Shown here in pieces: positions 5,350 through 27,149 of a DNA stretch of 32,796 bases. This DNA is from Verrucomicrobiota bacterium (lineage in GTDB: Bacteria; Verrucomicrobiota; Verrucomicrobiae; Limisphaerales; UBA11358). Each line of letters starts with the position of its first letter. Within the stretch, counting starts at the first letter, position 1. Location of the stretch: assembly GCA_014860005.1 (NCBI GenBank), contig JACZKP010000059.1, forward strand, positions 1 through 32,796, written 5' to 3'. The translations under genes were made by a program, and so were the position numbers. The notes beneath the pieces were generated by a model. The model was given only the letters and a program-made list of their open reading frames with translations, did no database searches and was not told where the DNA came from.

Positions 5350-5575
5350 CGTCGCTTTCTACGACGGTGTTGGAGGAGTGCGGGCAGCCTTGTCCGCAGC
5401 TTCCCATCCCCACGCCAGCAACGCGCGGACTCAGCGGTTCGCGCTCCTTTGTTTGCGGCTTTGCCACGCGGCTCAAGCTGCGCGAGCAATGCCGTCTGCC
5501 TTGGGCGTCGGTCTGTCCGCTTCTTGAACCCGTTGGTTACAGACCAGAAGTGGGTTGATTTTCGCCAAAAAATGG
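5350..5575. other. Intergenic DNA upstream of the pyrophosphatase gene
   Basis: No gene is supported between the MITE-like element and the pyrophosphatase promoter. The frame of the pyrophosphatase is open back to about 5449, but the extra residues are arginine- and cysteine-rich with no family resemblance, so this stretch is treated as untranslated. Confidence 0.5.
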
Positions 5576-5603
5576 TTGGCTTCCCCGGACGGGCTTGCAT
5601 AGT
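5576..5603 (+). promoter_or_regulatory. Candidate sigma70-type promoter of the pyrophosphatase gene
   Basis: TTGGCT at 5576-5581, a 16-base spacer, and CATAGT at 5598-5603 (4 of 6 matches in each box). The start codon is 16 bases further on, so the predicted leader is only about ten bases and holds no Shine-Dalgarno sequence. Confidence 0.35.
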
Positions 5604-5619
5604 TTCACCGCACTATTTT

Positions 5620-8130: not shown

Positions 8131-8147
8131 GCCGGGTTTTTCAAGCG

Positions 8148-8187
8148 ACGCCCTGCCGGTTGATCAACCGGCAGGGCGTTGTGTTTT
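8148..8187 (+). terminator. Rho-independent terminator after the pyrophosphatase gene
   Basis: A perfect 16-bp inverted repeat without spacer (8148-8163 with 8164-8179, ACGCCCTGCCGGTTGA and its complement) is followed by TGTGTTTT. It begins 17 bases after the stop codon. The very tip (TTGATCAA) will form the loop. Confidence 0.85.
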
Positions 8188-8335
8188 AGGGGCAGGCAAA
8201 TGCCACGGTTTCGGATTATCCCGCGAGCAATTCACCCGGCAGGGGTTTTCGTCGGAGCCACCTCCACACTCCGGCAAATTCCATCCTTGCGCCCGGCGCC
8301 ACGACAGGGAAAATCCCGCGCAACAAATTCAAATC

Positions 8336-8635
8336 ATGTTTTCACACGTTGTCATCTTTTGGACCGACCCGGCGCAGCCGGATGCGGTGGAGAAACTCAT
8401 TGCCGGCGCGAACCAGTATTTGAAGGGCCTTCCGGGCATGTTGCACTTTCACGTTGGCAAGATGGCCCGCAGCGCGCGGCCGGTGGTGGACCAAAGCTAT
8501 CAAGTGGCGCTGAACACCGTCTTTGCGAGCCAACAGGCGCAGGACGATTACCAGGTGCATCCGCAACACGTCGAGTTTGTGGAAAAGGTGTTCAAGCAGG
8601 TCTGCACCAAAGTCGTCATTTACGATTTTGAGTAG
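8336..8635 (+). CDS. Stress-responsive A/B-barrel (Dabb) domain protein
   Basis: A small cytoplasmic protein of 99 residues with the dimeric alpha/beta-barrel (Dabb) pattern: an N-terminal strand MFSHVVIFW, a helix over PDAVEKLIAGANQYL, a glycine turn (LPGMLHFHVGK), and the ending Q-x-H-P-x-H-V-x-F-V-E-K-V typical of this family, with the C-terminal strand KVVIYDF. Length fits the family (95-105 residues). The start at 8336 is chosen because the beta-strand begins at once; the frame runs further upstream into the terminator, which argues against a longer form. No Shine-Dalgarno sequence and no promoter were found. Members are often of unknown function; a role in stress or degradation is not shown here. 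Its stop codon lies in the palindrome shared with the convergent recombinase gene. Confidence 0.8.
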   Translation: MFSHVVIFWTDPAQPDAVEKLIAGANQYLKGLPGMLHFHVGKMARSARPVVDQSYQVALNTVFASQQAQDDYQVHPQHVEFVEKVFKQVCTKVVIYDFE

Positions 8636-8718
8636 GACAGGCCTCGCGCCTGTTGCAAACTTGATTCTCCCGCCCAGGCTGAGCAGGAAGTCCGCGACCG
8701 GCGCGACGCCTGTTCTAC
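8632..8718. repeat. 87-bp near-palindrome carrying both stop codons of convergent genes
   Basis: The arms 8632-8656 and 8694-8718 are complementary at 21 of 25 positions. The TAG near the outer edge of each arm is the stop codon of the neighbouring gene: 8633-8635 for the Dabb gene on plus and 8715-8717 for the recombinase on minus. The sequence can form a hairpin on either transcript, so a bidirectional terminator is possible, although there is no T-run. It could also be a short mobile palindrome. Confidence 0.75.
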
Positions 8719-9635
8719 GGTCGCGGATGAAACTTCCGGTGAATGTCCCGCAGCCGGCTGCCGCTGACATGCGTATAAACTTCCGTGGTGCTGATCGTCG
8801 CATGGCCCAACAATTCCTGAATCACGCGCAAGTCCGCGCCGTGCTCCAGCAGATGCGTGGCGAAACTGTGCCGCAACATGTGTGGGGTGACGTTCCGGGA
8901 AACGCCCGCCCGGCGCGTCCGGCGCTTGACGCGCAGCCACATCGTGACGGCGGCGAACGGCGTGCCGCGTTGGGTTAGAAACACATTCCCTGGTGATCGG
9001 CGAGTGACGAGCTTGGGCCGGCCCGACTCCAGGTACTGATTCAACGCTTCCACCGCCTTTTGGCCGACGGGCACCACGCGCTCCTTGTTGCCCTTGCCCA
9101 CGACGTTGAGGAATCCGGCTTCGAGGTGGAGCTGTTCCAACCGCAGGCCGCGCAGTTCCGACAAACGCAGACCGGAGGCGTAGGCCAGTTCGAGGATGGC
9201 CTGATCGCACAAGGTTTGCGGGGTGGCCGGAACTTCCGGCGCGAGCACTTCTTCCATTTCCGAATCGGTGAGTGCCTTCGGCAGCCGCTTCCAGCGTCGC
9301 GGCAGAGAGAGATGCTCCGCCACATTGGCCGGCAGCAGCTTCTCCTGCTCGGCGAAACGATAGAACGCCCGCAGCGCGGCAATTTCCAGATAAACGCTCT
9401 CGCTGCTGAGCCGGCGGGTGGATTCCTTGGGTTCGGATGCCAGCGGACGCGCACGCTCGTGCTGGAGGAACGCCATCAAGTGTTTCAGGTCAACCTGCTT
9501 CCAGTCGGTCAGATCTTGTTTGCCGGCCCACGCGACAAACTTGTTCAACAAAGCCGCGTAGGTCCGCTGCGTGTGTTCCGCCTGCCCGCGCTCGTGGCGG
9601 AGGTATTGGAGGAAATCTTCGACGAGGGTTTGCAT
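8715..9635 (-). CDS. xerD: Site-specific tyrosine recombinase, XerC/XerD type
   Basis: A 306-residue recombinase likely to resolve chromosome dimers at dif. The N-terminal SAM-like DNA-binding domain covers about 1-100 (FLQYLRHERGQAEHTQRTYA) and the catalytic domain about 120-300. All expected catalytic residues are present: R157 (SGLRLSEL), K181 (VGKGNKER), H252 and R255 (PHMLRHSFATH), H278 (LLGHATIST) and the nucleophile Y287 (TEVYTHV). Length and the lack of extra domains fit Xer rather than a phage integrase. The motifs are intermediate between XerC and XerD, so the choice of symbol is tentative. The ATG at 9635 begins right at the first helix. No obvious dif-like site or integron was seen nearby. 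It is convergent with the Dabb gene. Confidence 0.9.
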   Translation of the reverse strand: MQTLVEDFLQYLRHERGQAEHTQRTYAALLNKFVAWAGKQDLTDWKQVDLKHLMAFLQHERARPLASEPKESTRRLSSESVYLEIAALRAFYRFAEQEKLLPANVAEHLSLPRRWKRLPKALTDSEMEEVLAPEVPATPQTLCDQAILELAYASGLRLSELRGLRLEQLHLEAGFLNVVGKGNKERVVPVGQKAVEALNQYLESGRPKLVTRRSPGNVFLTQRGTPFAAVTMWLRVKRRTRRAGVSRNVTPHMLRHSFATHLLEHGADLRVIQELLGHATISTTEVYTHVSGSRLRDIHRKFHPRP

Positions 9636-9762
9636 TCGGAAACATTCAGGCTGGCTGATTGCTCATCAAGGCGTGAAGCTCTGGCTTGAATCAACCTTTC
9701 GATCTCGCGGGCGCCATGCAGTACCGCCAGTGGGTGGGGGCTTATTCCAGTCAAACACAGCC

Positions 9763-9975
9763 TCAAGCCGCCAATGCTTCAGCGCGAGCGAGCGCAGCTT
9801 CGAATACCCGCAGCAGATTCTCCTTCTGACGAACCACGGCATCTGCCGGGGCGAGCTTCTTTTCAAGGGAAAGACCGGACTGCGGTTCCGTCAGACGTAG
9901 CAGGCGCTCGCCGCCGACGAGCTTGATGAGGTCAAACTGGATTTTATCGCGGTCAACCATGAGTTTATTGTTCAT
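9763..9975 (-). CDS. Small protein of unknown function, second gene of a two-gene unit
   Basis: Seventy residues from the ATG at 9975, which overlaps the end of the preceding gene by 11 bases; a second ATG at 9958-9960, four bases after that gene's stop, is equally possible. The sequence is charged: a central IQFDLIKLVGGERLLRLTEP segment is followed by a helical C-terminus rich in alanine, leucine and arginine (NLLRVFEAALARAEALAA). No signal peptide, membrane segment or known motif is recognised. Overlap with the upstream gene implies cotranscription and perhaps a functional pair. A small-partner role is only a guess. Confidence 0.5.
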   Translation of the reverse strand: MNNKLMVDRDKIQFDLIKLVGGERLLRLTEPQSGLSLEKKLAPADAVVRQKENLLRVFEAALARAEALAA

Positions 9976-10339
9976 GAAATCCGTGGAATTGCAACAGGAG
10001 GTTGAGATTAGCCGGCGAGGCCGCACCCCAACGCGCATGGGCTTCGCGGGCGGCGCGCTCAAATTCTCCTTCGTTGAAATCCATCAGGTTCTCCGGCGGA
10101 TTCATACTTCCCACGGCTGCCGCTTCCAGGATTTCGTGGTAAAGCGTGACGGATAATTCTTCCTCGCTCAAACCTCCTTGGATGAGCAGACGGAATTCGT
10201 TGGCCACGATCCGGGTTTGAGCCTTTGCTTGCCGTTTCAGTGCATCCACCAACGGCTCATTGGTGAACTTGATTTCTTTGATGATGAACCCGCCACGAAG
10301 CTGGAGGCTTATGAATTGGTTGGGATCAATCACGCTCAA
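9965..10339 (-). CDS. Conserved-looking small protein with an H-E-x-x-E motif, first gene of a pair
   Basis: 124 residues, starting at TTG 10339 or GTG 10333; a stop lies just upstream in frame and there is no ATG. A beta-like N-terminus (NQFISLQLRGGFIIKEIKF) is followed by a helical part with LSVTLYHEILEA (H68, E69, E72), then MNPPENLMDFNEGEFERAA and a C-terminal SPANLNLLLQFHGF. The Y-H-E-I-L-E segment resembles the zinc helix of small metallopeptidase-like proteins, with glutamate in place of the second histidine. That is only a similarity of pattern and no activity is claimed. I recall similar short bacterial proteins of unknown function. The next gene overlaps its 3' end. Confidence 0.6.
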   Translation of the reverse strand: MSVIDPNQFISLQLRGGFIIKEIKFTNEPLVDALKRQAKAQTRIVANEFRLLIQGGLSEEELSVTLYHEILEAAAVGSMNPPENLMDFNEGEFERAAREAHARWGAASPANLNLLLQFHGFHEQ

Positions 10340-10401
10340 TGGTTGTCAGCATAGACCCGAAATCTCCAGCGGTTTTACAGTGCGTCCCGGGTCTTGGAGG
10401 T

Positions 10402-11310
10402 TCACAACTTCTTTCCCGTCAGCTTCTCATAGGCTTCCAGATACTTCGCCTGCGTTTTGGCGACGACTTCGGGCGGCAGGGCGGGCGCAGGTGGGGTTTT
10501 GTCCCAGTCCAGCGTTTCGAGGTAGTCGCGGACGAATTGTTTGTCGAAACTGGGTTGGCCTTTGCCTGGCGCGTATTGGTCAGCGGGCCAGAAGCGCGAA
10601 GAATCCGGCGTGAGCACTTCGTCAATCAGGATCAAGTTGCCCTCGTGCAGACCGAACTCGAATTTGGTGTCGGCGATGATGATGCCGCGCTGCCGGGCGT
10701 AGTCCCGGGCGAATTTGTAAATCTTCAGGCTCAGGTCGCGGGCCTGGTTGGCAATGTCGTCACCGAGAATCTTCTTCGCCTCGGTGAAGGGGATGTTTTC
10801 GTCGTGGCCGGACTCAGCCTTGGTGGACGGCGTGAAGATGGGTTCGGGCAACTCGGAGGATTCCTGCAAGCCGGCGGGCAGCGGACTGCCACAGACGGTT
10901 TGTGATTTCTTGTATTCCTTCCACCCCGAACCTGCCAGATAGCCGCGTACAATGCACTCGACGGCGAGGGGTTGGGCTTTCTTGACGATCATGGCGCGTT
11001 TGGCGAGCGAGGCCTTCGTGTCGGCAGGAATGCCTGCCAACGCCGGGATGTTGAAGGATTCTCCGGCCTTCACCAGACGGTGGTTCGGCACAAGCGATTC
11101 GGTCTGGTCGAACCAGAAATGCGAAATCTGCGTGAGCACCTCGCCCTTGCGGGGAATGCCGTTGGGCATCACGCAGTCAAACGCGGAAATGCGGTCGCTG
11201 GCGACGAAGAGAAAAGCGTCGCCGAGGTCGAAAATCTCGCGGACCTTGCCGGTTTTGAGCTTCTTGATGCCGGGCAGTTCGAGATGGAGTAATGGGTTGT
11301 CAGTTGCCAT
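10402..11310 (-). CDS. purC: Phosphoribosylaminoimidazole-succinocarboxamide synthase
   Basis: SAICAR synthetase of 302 residues, catalysing the ATP-dependent joining of aspartate to CAIR in purine synthesis (cytosolic). Visible family features: the N-terminal nucleotide-binding segment KTGKVREIFDLGD, FVASDRISAFD, the V-R-G-Y-L-A-G-S-G-W-K-E-Y block, DTKFEFGL and IDEVLTPDSSRFW. Length matches the longer (yeast Ade1-like) form rather than the roughly 240-residue enteric form. ATG 11310 is preferred to GTG 11316 because a -10-like CATACT lies nine bases upstream, so the GTG would fall at or before the transcription start. It stands alone; no other purine genes are in the window. Confidence 0.95.
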   Translation of the reverse strand: MATDNPLLHLELPGIKKLKTGKVREIFDLGDAFLFVASDRISAFDCVMPNGIPRKGEVLTQISHFWFDQTESLVPNHRLVKAGESFNIPALAGIPADTKASLAKRAMIVKKAQPLAVECIVRGYLAGSGWKEYKKSQTVCGSPLPAGLQESSELPEPIFTPSTKAESGHDENIPFTEAKKILGDDIANQARDLSLKIYKFARDYARQRGIIIADTKFEFGLHEGNLILIDEVLTPDSSRFWPADQYAPGKGQPSFDKQFVRDYLETLDWDKTPPAPALPPEVVAKTQAKYLEAYEKLTGKKL

Positions 11311-15644: not shown

Positions 15645-17048
15645 CTACTGGTGCAAACCAAGCTGCCTCAGCTTTTCACGCAATTTGAGCCGCGTGACTC
15701 CCAGCCAGCGTGCGGCCCGCCCTTGGTTTCCCTGCGCCAGCCGAAATGCTTGCGTGAACAATTCCGGTTCGAGATCAGCGATGACGCGGGCGTAGGCGTC
15801 CTGTTCCTCCCCGCGTTGCACCCTCGACAACAAATCCCTCACGTAATTGCTATAGCCAGCGCCGAGGACCGAGACGGCTTTGCGCCCTTGGGCGAGCACC
15901 TGTTTGACGTGCTCCGGGTTGATCGCGAATGGACGGGCCAGCAGGAGCGCCTGGCGGACGGCGTTCTCCAATTCACGGACGTTGCCGGGCCAGAATTGAT
16001 CGCCAAGAAGTGAAAGCGCATCACTTTGGATGGAAGGGGACTCGACTCCCAGCGCATGGGCGTCGCGTTGGATGAAAAATTCAACCAGCGAGGGTATGTC
16101 TTCGCGCCGTTCGCGCAGCGGCGGGATTTGAATCACTACTCCGTTCAGCCGGTAAAACAAATCCTCGCGGAATTCCTTTTCCCGGATCGCCGTTTCAATG
16201 TCGCAATGCGTCGCGGCCAGTACTCGCACATCCACCGCAATGAGTTCATTACCGCCCAATCGCTGGATGTGCCGCTCTTGCAGGACACGCAGCAGCTTGG
16301 ACTGCGTGTTTTGCGGCAGGTCGCCGATTTCATCCAGGAAGATGGTGCCCCCACTAGCCTGCTCGAATCGCCCGATGCGCTGGGATTGCGCGCCTGTAAA
16401 GGCACCGCGTTCGTGCCCGAACAATTCGCTCTCAAGCAGGGTCTCAGGAATGGCGGCGCAGTTGATGGCGATAAACGGCTTGTCCGCACGTTCGCTGTGC
16501 TGGTAAATGGCCCGCGCAACCAGTTCCTTGCCAGTGCCGGTTTCACCCCGGATCAAGACCGTAACTGGGGTCGCAGCGATGCGACCGATTTGTTTGTAAA
16601 TGCTCTGCATCACCCGGCTATTGCCGACCAAGGCGCGCGGGGCGGAATGTGACTCGCCAAGCTCAACTTCCTCCGTCATTAACCGTGACTGCTCGACGAC
16701 TGACGCAACGAGGTCGAGCAATTCATCCACTTCAAACGGTTTCACTAAATATTCGTATGCGCCCAGTTTGGTGGCTTGAATCGCCGTCTCGGTCGTGCCG
16801 TGAGCGGTCATCATGATGATGGGTAACCGCGGCTGCGAAGCTCGCAGTTTGCTGATCAGTTCAAGTCCGCTCACTCCGGGCAGTTTGAAATCTGTAAGCA
16901 CCAGATCGAACTGCTGGCGCACGGCGGCGGCGAGCCCCTCCTCCCCGCGCGAAACCGAAAGCACTACGTAGCCGGCCATGCGCAGCACTTTTTCAAATGC
17001 CGCGCCGGCGCTGACGTCATCTTCAATTAGTAGAATCCGTGGTGGCAT
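15645..17048 (-). CDS. Sigma54-dependent response regulator, NtrC family
   Basis: A 467-residue transcription activator. The receiver domain (1-120) has the acidic pocket E9-D10-D11, phospho-acceptor D53, T81 and K103. The AAA+ domain (about 138-375) has Walker A GETGTGKE (168-175), the sigma54-contact loop GAFTGA (215-220) and Walker B IFLDEIGD (236-243). A Fis-like helix-turn-helix ends the protein (GNQGRAARWLGVTRLKLREKL). ATG 17048 is chosen because the receiver strand PPRILLIEDD starts there; 64 codons upstream in frame overlap the kinase gene and have no domain. It overlaps the kinase gene by 26 bases, so the two are translationally linked. Its most likely target is the divergent adaptor/TolC operon, which has a sigma54 promoter. 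Confidence 0.95.
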   Translation of the reverse strand: MPPRILLIEDDVSAGAAFEKVLRMAGYVVLSVSRGEEGLAAAVRQQFDLVLTDFKLPGVSGLELISKLRASQPRLPIIMMTAHGTTETAIQATKLGAYEYLVKPFEVDELLDLVASVVEQSRLMTEEVELGESHSAPRALVGNSRVMQSIYKQIGRIAATPVTVLIRGETGTGKELVARAIYQHSERADKPFIAINCAAIPETLLESELFGHERGAFTGAQSQRIGRFEQASGGTIFLDEIGDLPQNTQSKLLRVLQERHIQRLGGNELIAVDVRVLAATHCDIETAIREKEFREDLFYRLNGVVIQIPPLRERREDIPSLVEFFIQRDAHALGVESPSIQSDALSLLGDQFWPGNVRELENAVRQALLLARPFAINPEHVKQVLAQGRKAVSVLGAGYSNYVRDLLSRVQRGEEQDAYARVIADLEPELFTQAFRLAQGNQGRAARWLGVTRLKLREKLRQLGLHQ

Positions 17049-18441
17049 GATTGGTCCATCGAGGCAGCCCGACACTGAAGGTCGTGCCGGAGTTTTGTTG
17101 CGTATGATATTGGATGTGTCCGCCGTGCTTCTCAACAATGCGCGCAGCAATGGACAATCCCAAGCCGGTGCCGCATTTCTTGGTCGAGAAAAACGGATCG
17201 AACAGACGGCTTTCGACTTCGGGTGGAATGCCCGCACCATTGTCCGTCACTTCGAAGATGGCCATCGGCTGTGAACCGCTGGTGCGATGCGCCGCTCCCT
17301 GCCGGATCCGAAGCGTCACGCTGCCATTTGCTCGAACACTCTCCGCCGCGTTCTGCGCAAGGTTGATGAGCACCTGTTTGATTTGTTCCTTGTCCGCATG
17401 CAGCCAAAGGTCATCCGTAATCTCGACGGCGAGTTGGACCGACTGTTTCTCAAACTGGCCGCGCAACAAGTCATGAACTTCCTGAAGCAATTGGGCGGCG
17501 GACACCTTCGCCCGTTCAGGTTCGGACGGCCGCGCGAACCGAAGGAAGTCTTTCACAATGCGTTCCAAGCGATTGATTTCGTCGCCGATGATTCGAAGAT
17601 CTTCGGTGTCGGCTAAACCAGACGACAGCGAATCCTGCAAGCTGAACAACCGGAACTTGATGGCGGCAAGCGGATTCCGGATTTCGTGTGCAACGCCGGC
17701 TGCCAGGGCGCCGAGCGCGGCCAGTTTCTCCTGTCGTTGAATGGCCGCCGTGCTGGCATTGAGCTGGCTTTGCAGCGGTGCGAAGAAGGCGCGATAGGCC
17801 AAGGCCAGAATCCCCGCACACAGGGTCAGCATGAGCGCCGCAGAGCCTTGCATCAACCGAATCACGTTGGTGACCGAACGATCCGACTGCGACAGGACGG
17901 ACTCCCAAGCTGATTGATTCGCTGCCACCAACTCATCGCAAACTAGCAGAACGGCAGCCGACTTCCCGGCGATTTGCTGTGCCAGTTCCTCAGTGGTGCC
18001 ACGTCGGATACCGCGAATCCCGCGAACCAGCAGTGGGGTCGCGTCCGCCAGATACACTCGATAGGCCGCCTCCACGGCCTTAAGCGATTCGACTTCCAGG
18101 TCAGTGACCAAATGCGGTTTCATCCGCTCAATTTGTTCGCTCAATTCCCGGGACTCGCGCAAGTAAGACTCGCGTTCGGTCTGGTCTTCCGACAACTGAA
18201 AGCGCAGCAATCGTCCGTCCAGCCGCCAGATTCCGGCACGCAAATGGACGCCGAGATAAAAACTCTCGGTGCGAATCGCGGCCATTTCCTTTTGCAGCAA
18301 TCTGGCCTGGTTCCAAGTGCTGCGCTCAATCCACAGGACCAATACCAACCCGGCGGCAACCACCAGCACGAAGCCGATCAACCGCGCTCTTGCCTCCGGA
18401 CTGCGAATTGAACTAAACATGCCAGCTTTGGAACAATTCAT
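17023..18441 (-). CDS. Membrane sensor histidine kinase, partner of the NtrC-type regulator
   Basis: 472 residues. A first membrane segment (about 21-38), a helical periplasmic domain of about 155 residues (charged helices with heptad-like leucines, resembling four-helix-bundle sensors) and a second membrane segment (about 199-218) precede a HisKA domain with H252 in GVAHEIRNPLAAIKFRL. The HATPase domain has N-box LINLAQNAAES, G1 VTDNGAGIPP, F-box LFDPFFSTK and G2 GTGLGLSIAARIVEKHGG, all intact. There is no visible HAMP or PAS domain. It starts at ATG 18441 (or ATG 18420). The kinase signals to the overlapping sigma54 activator. The ligand of the periplasmic bundle is unknown. It is divergent from the operon starting at 18646. 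Confidence 0.93.
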   Translation of the reverse strand: MNCSKAGMFSSIRSPEARARLIGFVLVVAAGLVLVLWIERSTWNQARLLQKEMAAIRTESFYLGVHLRAGIWRLDGRLLRFQLSEDQTERESYLRESRELSEQIERMKPHLVTDLEVESLKAVEAAYRVYLADATPLLVRGIRGIRRGTTEELAQQIAGKSAAVLLVCDELVAANQSAWESVLSQSDRSVTNVIRLMQGSAALMLTLCAGILALAYRAFFAPLQSQLNASTAAIQRQEKLAALGALAAGVAHEIRNPLAAIKFRLFSLQDSLSSGLADTEDLRIIGDEINRLERIVKDFLRFARPSEPERAKVSAAQLLQEVHDLLRGQFEKQSVQLAVEITDDLWLHADKEQIKQVLINLAQNAAESVRANGSVTLRIRQGAAHRTSGSQPMAIFEVTDNGAGIPPEVESRLFDPFFSTKKCGTGLGLSIAARIVEKHGGHIQYHTQQNSGTTFSVGLPRWTNHATTDSTN

Positions 18442-18518: not shown

Positions 18519-18535
18519 TTGGCATGTTCGTGGCT
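18519..18535 (+). promoter_or_regulatory. Sigma54 (-24/-12) promoter of the adaptor/TolC operon
   Basis: TTGGCATGTTCGTGGCT matches the sigma54 consensus YTGGCACGRNNNTTGCW at all but three positions, with the invariant GG (18521-18522) and GC (18533-18534) at the required spacing. A transcript starting about 12 bases after the GC would have a leader of roughly 100 bases. The neighbouring divergent regulator carries the GAFTGA sigma54-contact loop, which supports the assignment. Confidence 0.65.
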
Positions 18536-18645
18536 ATAGGGAGAAAGTCGCAAATCATGGTTTTGCAAAAATTTCATTACGGCCTCCATTCTAATGCTTT
18601 GGATGCGGGAAATCTCTCTGAATTTTTCCGGGAGGAATTGCTTTC

Positions 18646-19797
18646 ATGAGTTCGCCACGTCCAATCCCCATTCCCTGGTCGGCGCGATGGCGCGAATTCC
18701 GGGTCCGGTACGTGCCCTGGATCTTCTTTGCATTGCTAGTCGGTGCCATCGGGGTCATGCTGCAGTACTACAGTGCAACAGGAAACCTGCATGGAATCGG
18801 CGAAGGGGTGCGATCGCTCTTGGCCGCCCCGCAGCCCGCACGGATTGAGCAGTGGCTGGTGGCCCCATACACGATCGTGGAGCAGGGAACGGCGGTCGCG
18901 GTTCTCAGTCCGGTGGATGCGCGCGCTGACTTCGATCTGCTGCGCTCGTTGTTTGAGATGGCCCGCGTTCGCTTGCAGCCGTCGCTCGCGGAGAACAACG
19001 CGATGAACTTTGAGCGCATCCGGGTGGAATTATTGAAAACCAGATCCGAACTTGCCGTCGCCCGGGTGAAACTTGAACTGGCCGAAAGGGATGTATTACG
19101 CAACACCCCGCTGTATAAGGAGAAACTGGTTGCTGAGGACATTTATGAACTGAGTGTAAACGCACGCGATGCGCTGAAAGCCGAGGTTGAGGAGAAAGCC
19201 AAGGCCACTAGTGAGATTGAGCACCGCCTGGAGGAGTTACGGTCCATCGGCGACCCCGGTGCCTTGTCCAACGCCTCCGCAATCCCGGAATGGCTGTCCC
19301 AGTTGGAGCAAGCTCAGGCCAGTGCAGCCAGCAACCTGCAACCCCTCACCCTGCTCGCACCGATCACAGGTATGACGGGAGTGCCGCTGCGGCAACCAGG
19401 GGAGTTCGTGCTGGCCGGCGAACCTTTGCTCGCCATTAACGCTCTTCGATCGGATCGGGTGGTTGCCTATCTTCGGCAGCCCTACCCGTTGGAGCCAAAG
19501 GTGGGCATGCCTGCGCGTGTCACAACCCGAACCAAGCCGCGCCAAGTCTTCTGGAGTCATATTGAGCAGATTGGAGCTCACATGGAGATTCTCACCAATT
19601 CCTTGGCCATTGTGCGTCCGGATGCGTTGGTGGATGTGGCCCTGCCGGTCATGCTGCCGGTGCCGGACGATATTACCGTCCGTCCCGGTGAAATCGTGGA
19701 CCTTCTGATTCCTGATGCACCAACCGAGTCCTCAAGCCCCGTCCCTTCAGCGAAGGTCACTTTAATCCATCAGCAATCGTCCTCAATAAAACGATGA
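18646..19797 (+). CDS. HlyD/RND-type periplasmic adaptor (membrane fusion) protein
   Basis: 383 residues: one N-terminal membrane segment (about 24-42), then a periplasmic part. A long alpha-helical hairpin with heptads runs about 120-205 (LLKTRSELAVARVKLELAERD, then VNARDALKAEVEEKAKA); the lipoyl-like half motif LTLLAPITGMTGVPLRQPGEFVLAGEPLLAI follows at about 236-266, and a beta-barrel region after it. These proteins link an inner-membrane transporter to a TolC channel. The ATG at 18646 is supported by GGAGGA at 18631-18636, the clearest Shine-Dalgarno site in the window. The next gene overlaps it by four bases (ATGA). No transporter gene is in the operon. The N-terminal lipoyl half is weak (IEQWLVAPYTIVEQGTAVAVLSP), so the fold is somewhat degenerate. 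Confidence 0.85.
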   Translation: MSSPRPIPIPWSARWREFRVRYVPWIFFALLVGAIGVMLQYYSATGNLHGIGEGVRSLLAAPQPARIEQWLVAPYTIVEQGTAVAVLSPVDARADFDLLRSLFEMARVRLQPSLAENNAMNFERIRVELLKTRSELAVARVKLELAERDVLRNTPLYKEKLVAEDIYELSVNARDALKAEVEEKAKATSEIEHRLEELRSIGDPGALSNASAIPEWLSQLEQAQASAASNLQPLTLLAPITGMTGVPLRQPGEFVLAGEPLLAINALRSDRVVAYLRQPYPLEPKVGMPARVTTRTKPRQVFWSHIEQIGAHMEILTNSLAIVRPDALVDVALPVMLPVPDDITVRPGEIVDLLIPDAPTESSSPVPSAKVTLIHQQSSSIKR

Positions 19798-20786
19798 ATC
19801 CACGAATACACCATCGTCTGCGCATTCTTGCCGTTGCCGCTGCTTTGCTGTTTGCCCAATTGGCTGCCGCGAATCCTGCCGCCATCACCTGCCGCGGCAT
19901 GTGTGATGCCTCGGCGGTGGTGCCGTTGGGCAGCAGTCACTTCGTCGTTGCCGATGACGAGGACAACATTCTGCGCGTCTATTCGCGCATCAACGGCGGG
20001 CTGCCTTTGCACACTTATGATCTTTCCACCTTCCTGCGGGTGGATCCCAAGTCGCCGGAAGTGGACCTCGAAGGCGCCGCGCCGTTGGGAGATCGGGTTT
20101 ATTGGATTTCCTCCCACGCGCGGAATAAGAACGGCAAAGACCGTGTGAGTCGGCGGCGTTTATTTGCCACCACGCTGTCCGAGGTGAACGGCAAATCCAC
20201 CATCCAAGCGGTGGGACGTCCTTACCTCAATCTGTTGTCGGATCTGTTGAAAGATCCGCGCCTGAAACCCTTCAATTTGGCTGCGGCCGCCCGGCGCGCG
20301 CCCAAGTCGAAGAATGCGCTAAACATTGAAGGTTTGTGCGCCACAGCGGAAGGACATCTGCTGATCGGCTTCCGCAATCCCGTTCCCGCCGGCAGGGCTT
20401 TGATCGTGCCTCTGCTCAATCCGGCGGAAGTAATTGAAGGCAAAGCCGCGCGTCTGGGCGATTCGCTGCTGCTGGATTTGGGCGGCTTGGGCATTCGTAG
20501 TCTGGCACGGTCAGGGGACCGATATTTAATCATCGCGGGTCCATACGATGGCGAAGGCCAATCGCTGCTCTTTGAATGGCGCGGTGGGGCGGACGTTCCC
20601 CGCCGACTGCCACGCGCGGAACTGGCCGGGCTGAATCCAGAAGCGATCGAGTTCCTGACCGAAAACGGTGTCGAACGTCTGTTGGTTGTGAGCGACGACG
20701 GCACGCGGAAAATTAACGGGCAGGACTGCAAGACATTGACCGACCCGAATCTGAAATGCTTCCGGGCCCTTACGATTGATTTCTGA
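19794..20786 (+). CDS. Secreted DUF3616-like protein
   Basis: 330 residues with a signal peptide (RILAVAAALLFAQLAAANPAA). The rest looks like an irregular beta-propeller: GMCDASAVVPLGSSHFVVADDEDNILRVYS, VDLEGAAPLGDRVYWISSHARNKNGK, LNIEGLCATAEGHLLIGFRNP and NPEAIEFLTENGVERLLVVSDDG. The E-G-A and E-G-L-C blocks, each before a read-out strand, are the pattern I associate with DUF3616. Function is unknown in the family. It begins by ATGA overlap with the adaptor gene and is followed three bases after its stop by the next gene, so it is part of the same translationally coupled operon. It is probably periplasmic or exported through the neighbouring channel. Confidence 0.75.
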   Translation: MNPRIHHRLRILAVAAALLFAQLAAANPAAITCRGMCDASAVVPLGSSHFVVADDEDNILRVYSRINGGLPLHTYDLSTFLRVDPKSPEVDLEGAAPLGDRVYWISSHARNKNGKDRVSRRRLFATTLSEVNGKSTIQAVGRPYLNLLSDLLKDPRLKPFNLAAAARRAPKSKNALNIEGLCATAEGHLLIGFRNPVPAGRALIVPLLNPAEVIEGKAARLGDSLLLDLGGLGIRSLARSGDRYLIIAGPYDGEGQSLLFEWRGGADVPRRLPRAELAGLNPEAIEFLTENGVERLLVVSDDGTRKINGQDCKTLTDPNLKCFRALTIDF

Positions 20787-20789
20787 CTT

Positions 20790-23153
20790 ATGCTGAATCG
20801 CAATGGGAAACATCCCTTCATCCTCCTGGCCGCGGTTTGCATGGGATTGACCCTCGCGGGAACGGGGAGTCGCGCCCAAGTGGTACTGAACGAAGTCCTG
20901 GCCGACAACCGTTCCGCCGTCGCCAACGGCGGCAACTTCCCGGATTACATCGAACTGCACAATCCGTCGGCATTGGCGGTGAACGTTGGCAACTGGAGTC
21001 TGTCCGACGACCCCCTCCTGCCTCGGCAATTCGTGTTCCCGGCCGGCGCCACCGTGCCCGCCAATGGCTTTCTCGTTGTCTGGGCGGACCTCAATTTCGG
21101 TTCACCCGGCCTGCACACCGGTTTTGGTCTCGGCGCCAAGGGTGACCATGTCCGGCTTTATGCGCCGGACGGTATCACCGTGGTTGACCAAATTGCGTTT
21201 GGCTTGCAAGTGGGGGATTTCTCCCTCGGGCGCGTGCCGGACGGCTCGGGCGCGTGGGTGTTGAACCAGCCGTCGGTCGGGCTGCCCAATACCGCCACGG
21301 CCACGGGCGTCGCCAGCCAGCTTCGCCTCAACGAATGGATGGCCAGACCCGCCACTGGCGATGACTGGCTTGAAATGTTCAATGGCGCGAACCAGCCGGT
21401 AGCACTCGGCGGACTGGTCATCACGGACACTCCCGGCGGCACGCCCGGCAACCGCGCCATTCCCGCCCATTCCTTCATCGCGGCGGGTGATTTTGTGCAG
21501 TTCTTCGCCTCGGATCTCGCCAAGTCCGACGCTGACAACCTCGACTTCAAACTGGCGACTGAGGGGGAAACCCTGACCATTTACGGAGCAAACCGAACGA
21601 CGATTCTGGATCGCGTTGTCTTTGGGGCGCAAACCCAGAATGTTTCCCAGGGTCGCGCCCCGGACGGCAGCGAAAACTTTGCCTTCTTTCCCGCCGGCAC
21701 GGCCACTCCGGGTGACAGCAACTTCCAGATGCTAACCAACATCACGATATCCGAGGTGCTCACCCATACTGACCTGCCGTTTGAGGATGCTATCGAATTG
21801 CAGAACCTCACCGCCGCGCCCATGGACATCAGTCATTGGTGGCTGAGCGATTCAGGTTCGCAACCGCAGAAATACCGAATCCCGGCGGGCACCGTCATCG
21901 CCGCGCATGGCTTCAAGGTGTTTTACCACGTTCAGTTTGGAGCGGGTGAAACCGGCTTTGCGCTCAATTCCTCCGAGGGGGATGAAGTCTATCTTTCGGC
22001 CGGCAACTCGGCGGGCAATCTGACAGGGAAACAAATGTTTGTCCGCTTTGGCGCGCTCAAGAATCGCGTCTCGGCGGGCCGTCACGCGACCAGCACAGGC
22101 GTTGATTTCGTCCCGTTAAGTCAACTCAGCTTCGGCGTGGCCCATCCCGCAACGGTAGTCCAGTTCCGCCAGGGCGCGGGGCTGACGAACGCCGCGCCGC
22201 GCATCGGACCGATTGTCATTAACGAAATCATGTTTTTTCCACCGGACGTTGGCGGACAACCCAACACCGACGAGGAATTCATCGAACTGCACAACCCCGG
22301 GGCGGTCGAGGCTTTCCTATACGATCAACTTTTCCCGACGAACACCTGGCGGCTGCGCGACGGAGTCACGTTTGACTTCCCGCCCCAACTCACCATCCCG
22401 ACTGGAGGATTTCTGCTGCTGGTCAGCTTCGACCCGGTGGCCAGTCCGGCCAAGCTGACGGCGTTTCGCACCAAGTACGGCGTCGCCGCCAACGTGCCGG
22501 TGCTCGGTCCCTACACCGGTAAACTCAGCGACACGGGCGAGGCCTTGGAAGTTCTGGAGCCGGACACGCCGCAAGGGCCACTGAGTCCGGACCCCGGATT
22601 CGTGCCTTACATGCAAACCGAGCGGATCAAGTATGCCAGCGCCGCGCCGTGGCCGACGAATACCGCCGGAAGTGGACGCTCCCTCCAACGCCGCACGCCG
22701 CTGGCGTATGGCAACGAGCCGTTGAATTGGATCGCCGGCACGCCCAGCGCCGGACGAGCCAATGTGATTGATTCCGATGGGGACGGCATGCCCGATGTTT
22801 GGGAAGACCTGTATGAACTAAACCTCAATTCACCACTCGATGCTGCTGATGACGAGGATCTGGATGGGGCGAGCAACTTGATGGAATACCAGGCCGGCAC
22901 TAATCCGCGTGATATTGCCAGCGTGTTCGCTTTCACGAGCATCAGCCGGGACGGCGACTCACTCCGGCTTCGCTTTCACGCGGTTCAAGGGCGGACGTAT
23001 GCCGTGCAGGCAACTGACCCGCTGTTGCCCGGCGCTTGGCAGTTGGTCACGAATCATCCCCCCGTCACTGCCACCGGCGAGGTGGAATTGGTGGTTGCTG
23101 GCGCCACGAACACCAACAACTATTTCCGGCTGCTGACGCCGATCCTGCCATGA
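20790..23153 (+). CDS. Secreted protein with four lamin-tail domains and a Ca-binding-like linker
   Basis: 787 residues. Signal peptide (ILLAAVCMGLTLAGTGSRAQ), then four lamin-tail (LTD) units, each opening with an N/S-E-x-(L/M/I) strand followed by a (D/E)-x-(I/L)-E segment: VVLNEVLADN (from 31), LRLNEWMARP (about 173), ITISEVLTHT (about 317) and IVINEIMFFP (about 476). An aspartate-rich thrombospondin-3/EF-like stretch DSDGDGMPDVWEDLYELN lies at about 660, with a second DDEDLDGASNLMEY. The C-terminal domain (about 709-787) ends NNYFRLLTP, like the giant secreted protein at 932. No CotH kinase or nuclease domain, which often accompany LTDs, is present. It overlaps the TolC gene by ATGA. LTD proteins may bind polymers or DNA at the surface; the role here is not known. 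Confidence 0.85.
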   Translation: MLNRNGKHPFILLAAVCMGLTLAGTGSRAQVVLNEVLADNRSAVANGGNFPDYIELHNPSALAVNVGNWSLSDDPLLPRQFVFPAGATVPANGFLVVWADLNFGSPGLHTGFGLGAKGDHVRLYAPDGITVVDQIAFGLQVGDFSLGRVPDGSGAWVLNQPSVGLPNTATATGVASQLRLNEWMARPATGDDWLEMFNGANQPVALGGLVITDTPGGTPGNRAIPAHSFIAAGDFVQFFASDLAKSDADNLDFKLATEGETLTIYGANRTTILDRVVFGAQTQNVSQGRAPDGSENFAFFPAGTATPGDSNFQMLTNITISEVLTHTDLPFEDAIELQNLTAAPMDISHWWLSDSGSQPQKYRIPAGTVIAAHGFKVFYHVQFGAGETGFALNSSEGDEVYLSAGNSAGNLTGKQMFVRFGALKNRVSAGRHATSTGVDFVPLSQLSFGVAHPATVVQFRQGAGLTNAAPRIGPIVINEIMFFPPDVGGQPNTDEEFIELHNPGAVEAFLYDQLFPTNTWRLRDGVTFDFPPQLTIPTGGFLLLVSFDPVASPAKLTAFRTKYGVAANVPVLGPYTGKLSDTGEALEVLEPDTPQGPLSPDPGFVPYMQTERIKYASAAPWPTNTAGSGRSLQRRTPLAYGNEPLNWIAGTPSAGRANVIDSDGDGMPDVWEDLYELNLNSPLDAADDEDLDGASNLMEYQAGTNPRDIASVFAFTSISRDGDSLRLRFHAVQGRTYAVQATDPLLPGAWQLVTNHPPVTATGEVELVVAGATNTNNYFRLLTPILP

Positions 23154-24715
23154 GGTGGCGAACTGATAGCCCGATGCGCCGGGGTATTCTTGCGGTGATT
23201 GGCACGCTCGCGCTCCAAGGCGGCGCGTTCGCTGTAGATCAATCCGGGCAGCCGGAGTCTTCGGAGGTCCGCCACCTGGCACTTGAAGAATGTATTCGCA
23301 TCGCCTTGCTGCAAAATCGCACCTTGCAGATCGAACGCTTGAATCCCGCCATCGCCCAATCCTGGCTGAGCGCTTCCTACGGCTACTACGATCCCATTTT
23401 TTCGGTCGAAGCGCGCTCGGAGGATTCCGAAGACACTGGCGGATTTGATCCGGCGGATTTCAGCCGCGACGCCGTTTTCTCGGCGGATTCAGAAGTGGCC
23501 CGTGGCGGACTGATTGGCTTCCTCCCGGGCGGACTGAGCTATTCGATCTCAGGCGGCTACGCGCATAGTGAAGGTTTGCGCAACGGCCTGAATTTTGAGT
23601 CCTACAGTCTGCAGACCAGTTTCATGCTCAGGCAGCCGTTGCTGCGGAACTTCTGGATAGATCAAGGGCGCATGACGATTCAGGTGAACAGGCAGAATCT
23701 GGCGATCACGGAGCTGGGTGTTCTATTCGTGGCGATGGATGTTATCAATCAGGTTCAACATGCCTACTACGAACTGGCCTGCGCCCTCGGCGAATTGCGG
23801 GTGCGCCGGGAACTACTGGAAACCCGGCGGCAGCTTCTCTCGGGTGTGCGCCGCAAAATTGAAATGGGCACCCTCACGGTGCTCGACGAACGGCTTGCCG
23901 AAGCCCAGGTTGCTAATGTTGAAGCGGATCTTACCCTTGCGGACAACGCCATTCGGCTTGCGGAAAACGAATTGAGGTCATTGCTGGGGGATAGTTGGAC
24001 TAACACAGTTGATGTGCGCTTGGAGACAACCGATCCCTTGTTGGTGATGCCCGAACGGTTTGATCTCCCGGCGTGCTGGCAGCAGGGCCTTGCCAACCGT
24101 CCCGACCTCGCCCAGCTTCGCCAAGATGTCGAGAAGTCCGCCACGGATTTAAAGTTCCGCCGCAACCAACTCTTTCCATCGCTGGATTTCGTGGCCGGCC
24201 ACAGCCGCAAGGGTGCAAGCACGGGACAATTGTTGCCGCCCTTGCGTCCATCTGCGTCGTCCGACGAGGCCCGGGATCAGATCAGCGACGGCGACGCACC
24301 AACCGACATGGTGGGTATTGTGTTCTCCGTGCCCTTAAGTCGCACGGCCGAGCGAGCGAATTTTCGGGCCAGCAAACACGCGCGAGCCCAGGCTGAACTG
24401 CGTGTAAAACAATTTGAGGAGCAGGTCATGCGGGAGATTTCTGACGCCCTCCACACGGCGCGCGCCCGCCTTGATCGTGTTGGCCTTATCCGGCGTGCCC
24501 GCGAGCTCTCCGAAACTGCGCTGGAAGCCGAAGAGCAGAAACTGGCTGGCGGAAAGAGCACCCTTTTCTTTGTGCTCCAGTTGCAGAACGATCTCGCCTC
24601 CGCCCGTTCGGCCGAACTCCGAACCAAAGCCGACTACAATCAAGCCCTGTCCCAATTGCGCTTCGCCGAAGCAACTCTGCTTGAACGATGGGGGCTTCGT
24701 GTTGAATTCAAGTGA
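23150..24715 (+). CDS. TolC-family outer-membrane channel protein
   Basis: 521 residues from the ATG at 23150, which forms an ATGA overlap with the preceding stop; a second ATG at 23174 begins the signal-peptide core (MRRGILAVIGTLALQGGAFA). The TolC/OEP plan is clear: LALEECIRIALLQNRTLQIERLNPAIAQ at the first helical repeat, strand regions with alternating residues (GLSYSISGGYAHSEG), and two OEP repeats with long helices (VMDVINQVQHAYYELACALGELRVRRELLETRR and EEQVMREISDALHTARARLDRVGLIRRARELSE). It forms a trimeric outer-membrane and periplasmic conduit. As the last gene of the operon it provides the outer-membrane partner of the adaptor at 18646. It is slightly longer than typical TolC-like proteins (about 430-500). 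Confidence 0.93.
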   Translation: MRWRTDSPMRRGILAVIGTLALQGGAFAVDQSGQPESSEVRHLALEECIRIALLQNRTLQIERLNPAIAQSWLSASYGYYDPIFSVEARSEDSEDTGGFDPADFSRDAVFSADSEVARGGLIGFLPGGLSYSISGGYAHSEGLRNGLNFESYSLQTSFMLRQPLLRNFWIDQGRMTIQVNRQNLAITELGVLFVAMDVINQVQHAYYELACALGELRVRRELLETRRQLLSGVRRKIEMGTLTVLDERLAEAQVANVEADLTLADNAIRLAENELRSLLGDSWTNTVDVRLETTDPLLVMPERFDLPACWQQGLANRPDLAQLRQDVEKSATDLKFRRNQLFPSLDFVAGHSRKGASTGQLLPPLRPSASSDEARDQISDGDAPTDMVGIVFSVPLSRTAERANFRASKHARAQAELRVKQFEEQVMREISDALHTARARLDRVGLIRRARELSETALEAEEQKLAGGKSTLFFVLQLQNDLASARSAELRTKADYNQALSQLRFAEATLLERWGLRVEFK

Positions 24716-25709: not shown

Positions 25710-27149
25710 TCATTCAATCTTCATCTCGCGCTGAATGCCGAATTTTTCAATCCGTTTCCGCAGGGTCGCGCGGGTGATGCCGAGCAGTTTGGCGGCGTGG
25801 ACCTGGTTGTTGCTGGTTTCCTTGAGCGCCTGGATCACCAACTCGCGTTCGACGAAGGGAATGATCTTCAATTTCGGCTCGCGCCGCGCCAACTGATACA
25901 ACTGCCGCGCCAGCACCGCGGCATCACTGGTCCCGCTTTCGCCCGCCGTTGCCAAAGCCGCGGGAGCGCTGCCACTGGCTTGACCGCTGATGTCGCCCGG
26001 CAAGTCGCTCAACAGAATCGCATCGCCCTTGGCCATGACGTGCGCGTGGCGGATGGCGTTCTCCAGTTCCCGGACGTTGCCCGGCCAATGATATTTTTCC
26101 AGCGCCTTGACGACGCTCGTCGCGACGGACTTGGGCGGTTGGGTTTGATCGGGCGCCAATCGCTTCAGAAAATAATTTACCAGCAGCGGAATGTCCTCGC
26201 GGCGCTCGCGCAACGGCGCAATGTGAATCCGCACCACGTTGAGCCGGTAAAACAAGTCTTCGCGGAACTGCCGCGCGGCCACAGCCTGTTCCAGCGGCTT
26301 GTTAGTGGCGGCGATCACGCGTGCGTCCACCTTGATGGGCGTGTTGCCACCCACACGCTCGAAGGTGCCACTTTGCAGGACGCGCAGAATTTTCGTTTGC
26401 GTGGGCGGCGTCATGTCACCGATTTCATCGAGGAAAATCGTGCCGCGGTGGCATTGTTCAAACTTGCCGATGCGCTGGTTGGTGGCACCGGTGAACGCGC
26501 CGCGTTCGTGACCGAATAATTCACTTTCCAAGAGTTGCTCGGGAATCGCCGCGCAGTTTACCGCAAGAAACGGGCGCTGACTGCGTTGGCTGTGATGATA
26601 GATTGCGCGAGCGACGAGTTCCTTCCCCGTGCCGCTTTCGCCGGTGACCAGCGCCGTGGCATCCGAGGCGGCGAGTTGCCCGATGAGTTTGAACACCTGC
26701 TGCATGGCTTGGCTGCGGCCTACAATGCCCAGTTCATAATCCTCCGATTCGAGCAACGGCTGGTACGACACCACTTGTTTCATGTCGCGCGCGGCTTTGA
26801 GCGCGTTGGCAACGATCTCCTTGATCTTCGGCACATCGAACGGCTTGAGTAGATAATCGTACGCGCCGAGTTTCATCGCCTCGATGGCCATTTGGGTGGT
26901 GCCGTAGGCGGTCATCAGAATGACGAGGAGCTTGGAATCCATCTGCCGGATGCGACGGAGAGTTTCCAGACCGTTCATGCCGCCCATGCGGATGTCCATG
27001 AGGACAAGGTCGGGCTGGAATTTGGGAATCAACTTCAAGCCTTCCTCACCGCTGGAGGCGGTGGCGAGTTCCAGGTCCGGCGCATCAAAGATGCGCCGGA
27101 ACGAGTATTGCACGTCCGTTTCGTCGTCAATCAACAGCAGTTTGCTCAT
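25710..27149 (-). CDS. Second sigma54-dependent response regulator, NtrC family, no kinase beside it
   Basis: 479 residues. The receiver domain has D8-D9-E10, phospho-acceptor D52, T80 and K102. The AAA+ domain has Walker A GESGTGKE (170-177), the GAFTGA loop (217-222) and Walker B IFLDEIGD (238-245), all intact. The Fis-like helix-turn-helix at the C-terminus reads NNQVHAAKLLGITRATLRKRIEKFGI. It is paralogous to the regulator at 15645 but has a longer, alanine- and serine-rich linker before the helix-turn-helix. No histidine kinase adjoins it, so its partner must be elsewhere, or it is regulated otherwise. A weak promoter (TTGCTT at 27181-27186, TACCCT at 27159-27164, minus strand) sits nine bases before the ATG. 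Confidence 0.95.
   Translation of the reverse strand: MSKLLLIDDETDVQYSFRRIFDAPDLELATASSGEEGLKLIPKFQPDLVLMDIRMGGMNGLETLRRIRQMDSKLLVILMTAYGTTQMAIEAMKLGAYDYLLKPFDVPKIKEIVANALKAARDMKQVVSYQPLLESEDYELGIVGRSQAMQQVFKLIGQLAASDATALVTGESGTGKELVARAIYHHSQRSQRPFLAVNCAAIPEQLLESELFGHERGAFTGATNQRIGKFEQCHRGTIFLDEIGDMTPPTQTKILRVLQSGTFERVGGNTPIKVDARVIAATNKPLEQAVAARQFREDLFYRLNVVRIHIAPLRERREDIPLLVNYFLKRLAPDQTQPPKSVATSVVKALEKYHWPGNVRELENAIRHAHVMAKGDAILLSDLPGDISGQASGSAPAALATAGESGTSDAAVLARQLYQLARREPKLKIIPFVERELVIQALKETSNNQVHAAKLLGITRATLRKRIEKFGIQREMKIE

Follow-up and report, generated by a model that had tools for sequence, protein, structure and literature searches.

What does an operon do that encodes a periplasmic adaptor and a TolC-like outer-membrane channel and no pump? 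The question is raised by a stretch of 32,796 nucleotides from a Verrucomicrobiota bacterium (contig JACZKP010000059.1), which as a whole is called the window here. Its forward strand carries, in this order, genes for an adaptor, a DUF3616 protein, a protein with four LTD stretches and a TolC-like channel, as recognised from the sequence, Pfam and NCBIfam (Table 1). They are tightly coupled, as had been noticed from the letters of the sequence: an ATGA (19794-19797) holds both the stop of the adaptor gene and the start of the DUF3616 gene, a gap of 3 bases (20787-20789) separates the DUF3616 and LTD genes, and a second ATGA (23150-23153) joins the LTD stop to the TolC start. Pfam agreed with the identities first proposed for DUF3616 (3.7e-17), LTD (6.4e-42, 4 stretches) and the channel (OEP, 6.7e-41), the last match placing it in the TolC family of outer-membrane channels. 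The HlyD-like nature of the adaptor was borne out weakly. The window protein matched HlyD_3 at 0.0012, under the cut-off of this Pfam family, which the relatives L105 and L049 exceed; in NCBIfam the adaptor matched RND_mfp (7.3e-12) and the channel the TolC family (1.8e-31), each under its curated cut-off. The similarity of the adaptor to EmrA is weak, yet the HlyD/EmrA-type signal was consistent across searches. Neither Pfam nor NCBIfam recognised an ABC, RND or MFS gene in the operon, in agreement with the original prediction; VTC, DUF4956 and (by Pfam) CotH kinase genes are not present in it either. VTC genes encode relatives of the yeast polyphosphate polymerase Vtc4, and DUF4956 genes a membrane protein. 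The closest genome fetched was a Verrucomicrobiia MAG (L001/G001), with identities to the window of 98% (adaptor), 90% (DUF3616) and 93% (LTD), and it is therefore a relative of the source of the window and a distinct genome. Elsewhere in the window there is a membrane H+-pyrophosphatase gene (5449-8130, + strand), about 10 kb upstream of the operon, and downstream of it, past a GT2 glycosyltransferase, a second NtrC-type regulator (25710-27149, - strand).

Table 1. The operon of the window, its promoter-like site and the divergent regulatory genes.
Feature	Coordinates	Strand	Basis
NtrC-type response regulator (receiver, sigma54 AAA+, Fis-type HTH), start taken at 17048	15645..17048	-	Pfam, GAFTGA loop
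Sensor histidine kinase, divergent from the operon	17023..18441	-	Pfam HisKA, HATPase_c
Sigma54 -24/-12 promoter-like site TGGCATGTTCGTGGCT, GG-N10-GC	18520..18535	+	Pattern recurs in relatives
Inner-membrane-anchored periplasmic adaptor, VTC-DUF4956-linked adaptor family	18646..19797	+	Pfam, NCBIfam, alignment, tree
DUF3616 protein, predicted signal helix and beta-propeller	19794..20786	+	PF12275; AF2 pLDDT 89.7
Four-LTD secreted protein, Ca-binding-type DxDxDG stretch, C-terminal module	20790..23153	+	PF00932, 4 stretches
TolC-like outer-membrane channel	23150..24715	+	PF02321, NCBIfam

The two genes divergent from the operon had been described as a histidine kinase and an NtrC-type regulator, and this was confirmed: Pfam recognised receiver, Sigma54_activat and HTH_8 domains in the regulator, in which the GAFTGA loop is present. 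Orthologues of the regulator (66-99%) were found in L001, L002, L008 and L009, and adjacent orthologues of the kinase in the same four loci and in L096 and L100. The predicted -24/-12 promoter holds as a promoter-like site, since the pattern GGCAY-N7-GCT points toward the operon in six of six kinase/operon intergenic regions (those of the window, L002, L008, L009, L100 and L096); the L100 region has one additional match on the opposite strand. Its chance occurrence, 0.3-1.4% per region in mononucleotide shuffles, is an indicative figure because the pattern was fitted after the sites had been seen. Kinase, regulator and -24/-12 site are kept in relatives, and the Pfam domains, the promoter-like site and the relatives' loci together uphold the notion of a dedicated sigma54/two-component envelope operon without a classical pump.

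An adaptor alignment (A1) was used to fetch 13 loci, genome stretches were added later, and local profiles then served to annotate 50 distinct adaptors. A DUF4956 gene lies directly upstream, on the same strand, in 34 of the 50, and in 28 of these 34 a VTC gene precedes it within the stretch seen; in L105 the VTC-DUF4956 pair is divergent from the adaptor, and 15 adaptors have neither VTC nor DUF4956 in view. L013 appears to be a remote locus of the MacA-MacB type. The adaptor tree, rooted at its midpoint, comprised 47 of the annotated adaptors (a fetched locus was required and three short rows were left out). The TolC-linked adaptors form a clade of 14 rows (support 100/100) nested among VTC-DUF4956-linked adaptors (30 rows outside the clade), and the VTC-linked L097-L099 sit near it. 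If the root lies anywhere outside this clade, the window-type adaptor descends from a family of VTC- and DUF4956-linked adaptors. Inside the TolC-linked clade, the four rows that have DUF4956 upstream of the adaptor and DUF3616 downstream of it make up one clade (100/97); either the lineage of the window may have lost the upstream VTC-DUF4956 pair or the bridging clade may have regained it. The gene orders are HK/RR - VTC - DUF4956 - adaptor - DUF3616 in L009, HK/RR - DUF4956 - adaptor - DUF3616 - LTD - TolC in L100, VTC - DUF4956 - adaptor - DUF3616 - TolC in L004 and L005, and that of the window in L096. The promoter-like site is found upstream of VTC in L009 and upstream of DUF4956 in L100, and therefore VTC and DUF4956 could there be under a switch of this type as well.

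The genes adjacent to the adaptor in the 14 loci of the TolC-linked clade were DUF3616 (12), TolC (12), HK/RR (6), LTD (6), DUF4956 (4) and VTC (3). The exceptions include L010, without DUF3616, L009, which stops at DUF3616, and L007, a stretch that begins at the adaptor. L011 contains a decayed copy (9896-11125) in which a truncated adaptor continues in frame into a piece of DUF3616; the stretch shows none of this TolC. A search for conserved co-occurrence of the whole set had been advised; DUF3616 and TolC were found in 12/14 each, LTD and the kinase/regulator pair in 6/14 each. The possibility that a pump normally sits in the operon and was merely lost here is not supported: in the 12 of 14 clade loci showing both adaptor and TolC, nothing other than DUF3616 and/or LTD was recognised between them, though the flanks were annotated in part and a pump may lie further off.

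To follow the genes beyond the adaptor loci we searched 286 genomes from the class of G001, with an adaptor family threshold of E<=1e-20; at most 6 adaptor candidates and at most 10 DUF4956 candidates were scored per genome, so that weak extra copies may be missed. The adaptor was present in 43 genomes, VTC in 67 and DUF4956 in 70. Both VTC and DUF4956 were present in 42 of the 43 adaptor genomes, the exception (G163) having neither. There were 47 adaptor places from 48 rows (two adaptor pieces of G177 were merged; the adaptor of G074, at a contig end, was left out of the unlinked count). At 36 of the 47 a DUF4956 gene lies at most 340 bases upstream on the same strand, and at 30 a VTC gene precedes the adaptor on the same strand, no more than 3 kb away; at four more places (G187, G284, G239 and G043) the VTC-DUF4956 pair is next door on the opposite strand. 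When the adaptor-type DUF4956 proteins (alignment A4) served as the query, the matches fell cleanly into two groups, at 202-448 bits in 43 genomes and at or below 104.5 bits for the rest. Of the 43 genomes with the adaptor-type subfamily 42 carry the adaptor, all 42 with a VTC gene; the odd one (G274) has an adaptor-type DUF4956 pair and no adaptor nearby. Among the matches listed, none of the 23 genomes having other DUF4956 types alone had an adaptor. The Fisher p values were 1e-31 (VTC) and 4e-48 (DUF4956 subfamily), figures that ignore shared ancestry and so are not probabilities. The weight of the argument lies in adjacency and in those genomes that have the genes on separate contigs or in separate operons. 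In G153 and G201 adaptor and DUF4956 are on different contigs, yet both are present; in G001, G002 and G244 they belong to another operon; and G003 has a VTC-DUF4956 pair without an adaptor and an adaptor-DUF3616-TolC operon elsewhere in the genome. A search for an unlinked transporter that co-varies with the operon had been advised at the outset, and the co-varying partner found was VTC plus DUF4956 (42/43 adaptor genomes), a tie that the first reading of the sequence had missed. CotH, present in 78 of the 286 genomes, was set aside as a constant neighbour, this being a count of genomes and not of adjacency.

We lean, with modest confidence, towards the view that the operon supplies the periplasmic and outer-membrane parts of a machine made of VTC, DUF4956, adaptor and TolC, the inner half of which is encoded elsewhere. 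This view builds on what was observed of gene order, co-occurrence, the adaptor tree, the promoter-like site and the tunnel residues of VTC. The inner half would consist of DUF4956, predicted to have 5 TM helices and an ACT/ferredoxin-like tail, and of a Vtc4-like triphosphate-tunnel enzyme, with no ABC, RND or MFS pump; their genes, directly upstream in the same operon in some relatives, would lie elsewhere in the lineage of the window. On the cytosolic side, VTC would make or process a polymer rich in phosphate, which DUF4956 would gate or pass, and the adaptor, anchored by its conserved cytosolic tail, would couple DUF4956/VTC to TolC. Outside the inner membrane, accessory or surface roles may fall to the propeller protein DUF3616 and, in part of the lineages, to LTD proteins, and the kinase/NtrC pair would turn the set on via sigma54. 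As counter-evidence, the only adaptor-type VTC-DUF4956 pair of G001 has its own adaptor, and therefore the adaptor of the window may have moved to another partner. No window-type TolC was seen beside the VTC-DUF4956-adaptor operons outside the clade, where many stretches reach only 1.5 kb.

The same G001 pair, already provided with an adaptor, favours a different explanation, namely that the adaptor and TolC serve an ordinary unlinked ABC, RND or MFS pump and that the link to VTC/DUF4956 is historical. The weak RND_mfp and EmrA similarity of the adaptor points the same way, and so do two neighbourhoods: in G006 the VTC-DUF4956-adaptor genes are preceded, at a distance of about 210 bp, by a MacA-MacB-type ABC cluster with two permease genes (L058, 3683-8473), and the VTC-DUF4956 pair of G003 has an RND operon some 2 kb away. 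However, the space between adaptor and TolC held no recognisable pump gene in the clade loci and the co-varying partner that was found is DUF4956, even from another contig, and we consider an unlinked pump unlikely.

The 60 genomes searched for the outer parts were the 43 with the adaptor, 9 more that had come with the first loci, and 8 taken from the 25 that have VTC and lack the adaptor. The window-type TolC subfamily (at least 636 bits) was found in 13 of the 60, 12 of them with a clade adaptor and the other being G052, and less close TolCs (E<=1e-40) raised the total to 49; the window-type TolC is thus tied to the adaptor clade of the window. Window-type DUF3616 (E<=1e-15) was present in 29 of the 43 adaptor genomes, 9 of the 9 first-loci genomes and none of the 8 VTC genomes without adaptor, and 24 of the 38 adaptor genomes outside the TolC-linked clade have it away from the adaptor. 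In four genomes (G025, G100, G254 and G010) the sole DUF3616 match is an open frame of about 1140-1170 aa. By this distribution DUF3616 behaves as a member of the module even when unlinked, and it looks like a component rather than cargo because it is near-constant in the operon and present away from the adaptor outside the clade; LTD looks like an optional surface protein. The original prediction had given the two proteins equal standing, which the clade counts (DUF3616 12/14, LTD 6/14) correct.

These counts also bear on the export of both proteins as passengers, as first proposed, in which adaptor and TolC would take the co-encoded secreted DUF3616 and LTD proteins from the periplasm. The tight coupling of the genes, the constancy of DUF3616 in the clade and the signal-peptide-bearing appearance of both proteins (from the sequence and, for DUF3616, the model) speak for it. 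Against it, LTD is absent from 8 of the 14 loci, DUF3616 keeps company with the adaptor family when encoded elsewhere and is missing from the adaptor-less VTC genomes, an energy source is still lacking, and a DUF3616 protein encoded elsewhere shows a weak likeness to the C-terminal module of the LTD protein. We therefore judge this export improbable, and the passenger role to be unsupported.

The protein just mentioned belongs to a group of 1138-1147 aa with a DUF3616-type domain near the C-terminus (L114 1926-5342, L115 457-3873 and L116 2883-6326). The domain of L114 is 34% identical to the DUF3616 protein of the window, and it is the C-terminal module of L114 that is weakly like that of the LTD protein. 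A gene fusion of LTD and DUF3616 was rejected as proof of a link, because L114-L116 have no Pfam LTD and the BLASTP match of L114 to LTD was not significant. In L006 a frame of 620 aa directly upstream of the adaptor (8092-9954) has sigma-70 regions 2 and 4 followed by DUF3616, either a fusion or an in-frame run-on. By fold, the DUF3616 model matched many propellers with TMq at most 0.47 among the best matches listed, and no specific function was derived from them. The LTD protein gave weak matches in the PDB (the best 0.21) and nothing in PHROGs.

Returning to the VTC-DUF4956-adaptor-TolC machine, the adaptor would have to hold an inner partner. The most conserved stretch of the adaptor family is the cytosolic N-tail, residues 6-24 (PIPTP..RWREFR..LP), as expected if this tail holds the inner partner; the mean share of the commonest residue is 0.64 in the N-tail, 0.38 in the TM, 0.45 in the hairpin and 0.48 and 0.51 in the barrel, with limits set by eye. 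Five adaptors match the family in their second half only, in short open frames, and the two of these examined, L103 (8983-9744, 253 aa) and L105 (8336-9058, 240 aa), have no hairpin and the same type of cytosolic tail. The adaptor of L105 is the one divergent from VTC-DUF4956, and the L103 stretch has neither gene. A precedent for an adaptor without hairpin, as described in a review, is Borrelia BesA (PMC8277102). That adaptor, propeller and TolC-like barrel are no transporter at all and tether or sense a surface structure built by VTC/DUF4956/CotH/LTD genes is suggested by the adaptors without a TolC-reaching hairpin, by the CotH genes of the class and by the gene for an LTD-CotH protein after TolC in L012, but the TolC-like channel conserved in 12 of the 14 clade loci argues for a conduit and leaves this idea with a slim chance.

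For the machine we favour, the nature of its inner half can be approached through the VTC and DUF4956 proteins of relatives. A profile of 19 VTC proteins matched Vtc4 chains in the PDB at 5.1e-16, whereas a single-sequence search found nothing relevant there. E11, R75, R77, Y156, R158, R171, D175, E206 and K233 are invariant in the 19 proteins, and K13 and K92 are conserved in at least 90% of them. The basic tunnel residues and the metal-binding Glu of Vtc4 are thus present (R75, R77, R158, R171, K233 and E206), R75/R77 aligning by eye with R264/R266, E206 with E426 and K233 with K458; R264, R266 and E426 are among the Vtc4 residues named in the literature (PMC9911596), as is K458 (PMC4641920). 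An acidic patch is described in many other TTM enzymes and as absent from Vtc4 (PMC4641920). E11, the Glu that stands two positions ahead of the first tunnel Lys, corresponds to a Thr in Vtc4, and for this reason the polymerase activity of the relatives' VTC is not assured. Two further VTC/DUF4956 pairs of other subfamilies occur in G001 (L055 8832-10257 and L056 7377-8776) with no adaptor in view, a CotH match lying about 3 kb from the L056 pair.

The DUF4956 model shows five helices that probably span the membrane, followed by a tail of ferredoxin/ACT-like type, at moderate confidence (pLDDT 73). Foldseek gave no match below 1e-3 for it, and the DUF4956 and DUF3616 profiles found no relative in the PDB. 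A Vtc1-like channel fold was considered for DUF4956 and is not established, given the Foldseek result and a second look (VIA) that covered mainly residues 146-232. MgtC/YhiD proteins likewise combine a predicted TM bundle with an ACT/ferredoxin-like domain behind it, and the MgtC C-domain (2lqj) ranked 42 among the Foldseek matches; the fold match is not significant and there is no PDB sequence match, which makes this a resemblance only.

That the parts form a complex, the direction in which it transports and its substrate, perhaps polyphosphate, are what we infer. In the most specific version the Vtc4-like enzyme would polymerise a phosphate polymer in the cytosol, and the DUF4956 channel, adaptor and TolC would pass it to the cell surface as a dedicated polyphosphate exporter, a proposal that we put forward tentatively and hold to be somewhat unlikely. 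If it were true, TolC conduits would have a further class of inner-membrane partner besides ABC, RND and MFS, and with polyphosphate as the substrate there would be a route for its active secretion in Verrucomicrobiota. Even the near one-to-one link of the adaptor with DUF4956/VTC would add a different inner half for such conduits and give bacterial VTC and DUF4956, both little studied, a testable job. The "pump-less" operon would turn into a concrete prediction: DUF4956 and VTC as partners, and an extracellular phosphate polymer under sigma54 control.

Clusters of CotH, VTC and DUF4956 are already in print; the tie of the adaptor family to VTC/DUF4956 is new here, our searches of open-licence PMC papers having brought up none that connects VTC or DUF4956 with an adaptor or with TolC. 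In the portion of one study that describes Gram-positive Pel loci, CotH, a VTC-type poly-phosphate polymerase and DUF4956 are a cluster of accessory genes, discussed in the context of extracellular polymers (PMC7112168). As in the relatives analysed here, the polyphosphate-polymerase-type gene adjoins DUF4956, and CotH and LTD proteins are found in genomes of the adaptor family too; that portion of the study mentions no adaptor, DUF3616 or TolC (PMC7112168). The operon of the window differs in having no CotH gene and in belonging to a set that reaches across the outer membrane. A VTC/CotH cluster has also been described in Clostridium perfringens, in a passage of another report (PMC2879425). 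In yeast, according to the section on the VTC complex (Vtc1/3/4), polyphosphate synthesis is coupled to passage through the membrane (PMC9911596). What the yeast complex and the relatives' genes have in common is the VTC catalytic domain, the conserved tunnel residues and a multi-TM partner alongside; the match is confined to the VTC domain, kinship of DUF4956 with Vtc1 not being established, and the yeast complex has no periplasmic adaptor or outer-membrane channel. For tripartite systems, the inner-membrane transporters named in the part of the review concerned are ABC, RND and MFS (PMC8277102). Tripartite efflux and type I secretion share with the operon of the window the periplasmic adaptor and the TolC-family channel, but they have an ABC, RND or MFS partner, and none is found in this operon.

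Synthase-dependent secretion (cellulose, alginate, Pel, PNAG) couples polymerisation to export via a trans-envelope path. The proposed machine would have no glycosyltransferase synthase and would use a TTM-fold enzyme and TolC instead, and we take synthase-dependent secretion as a working analogy for it.
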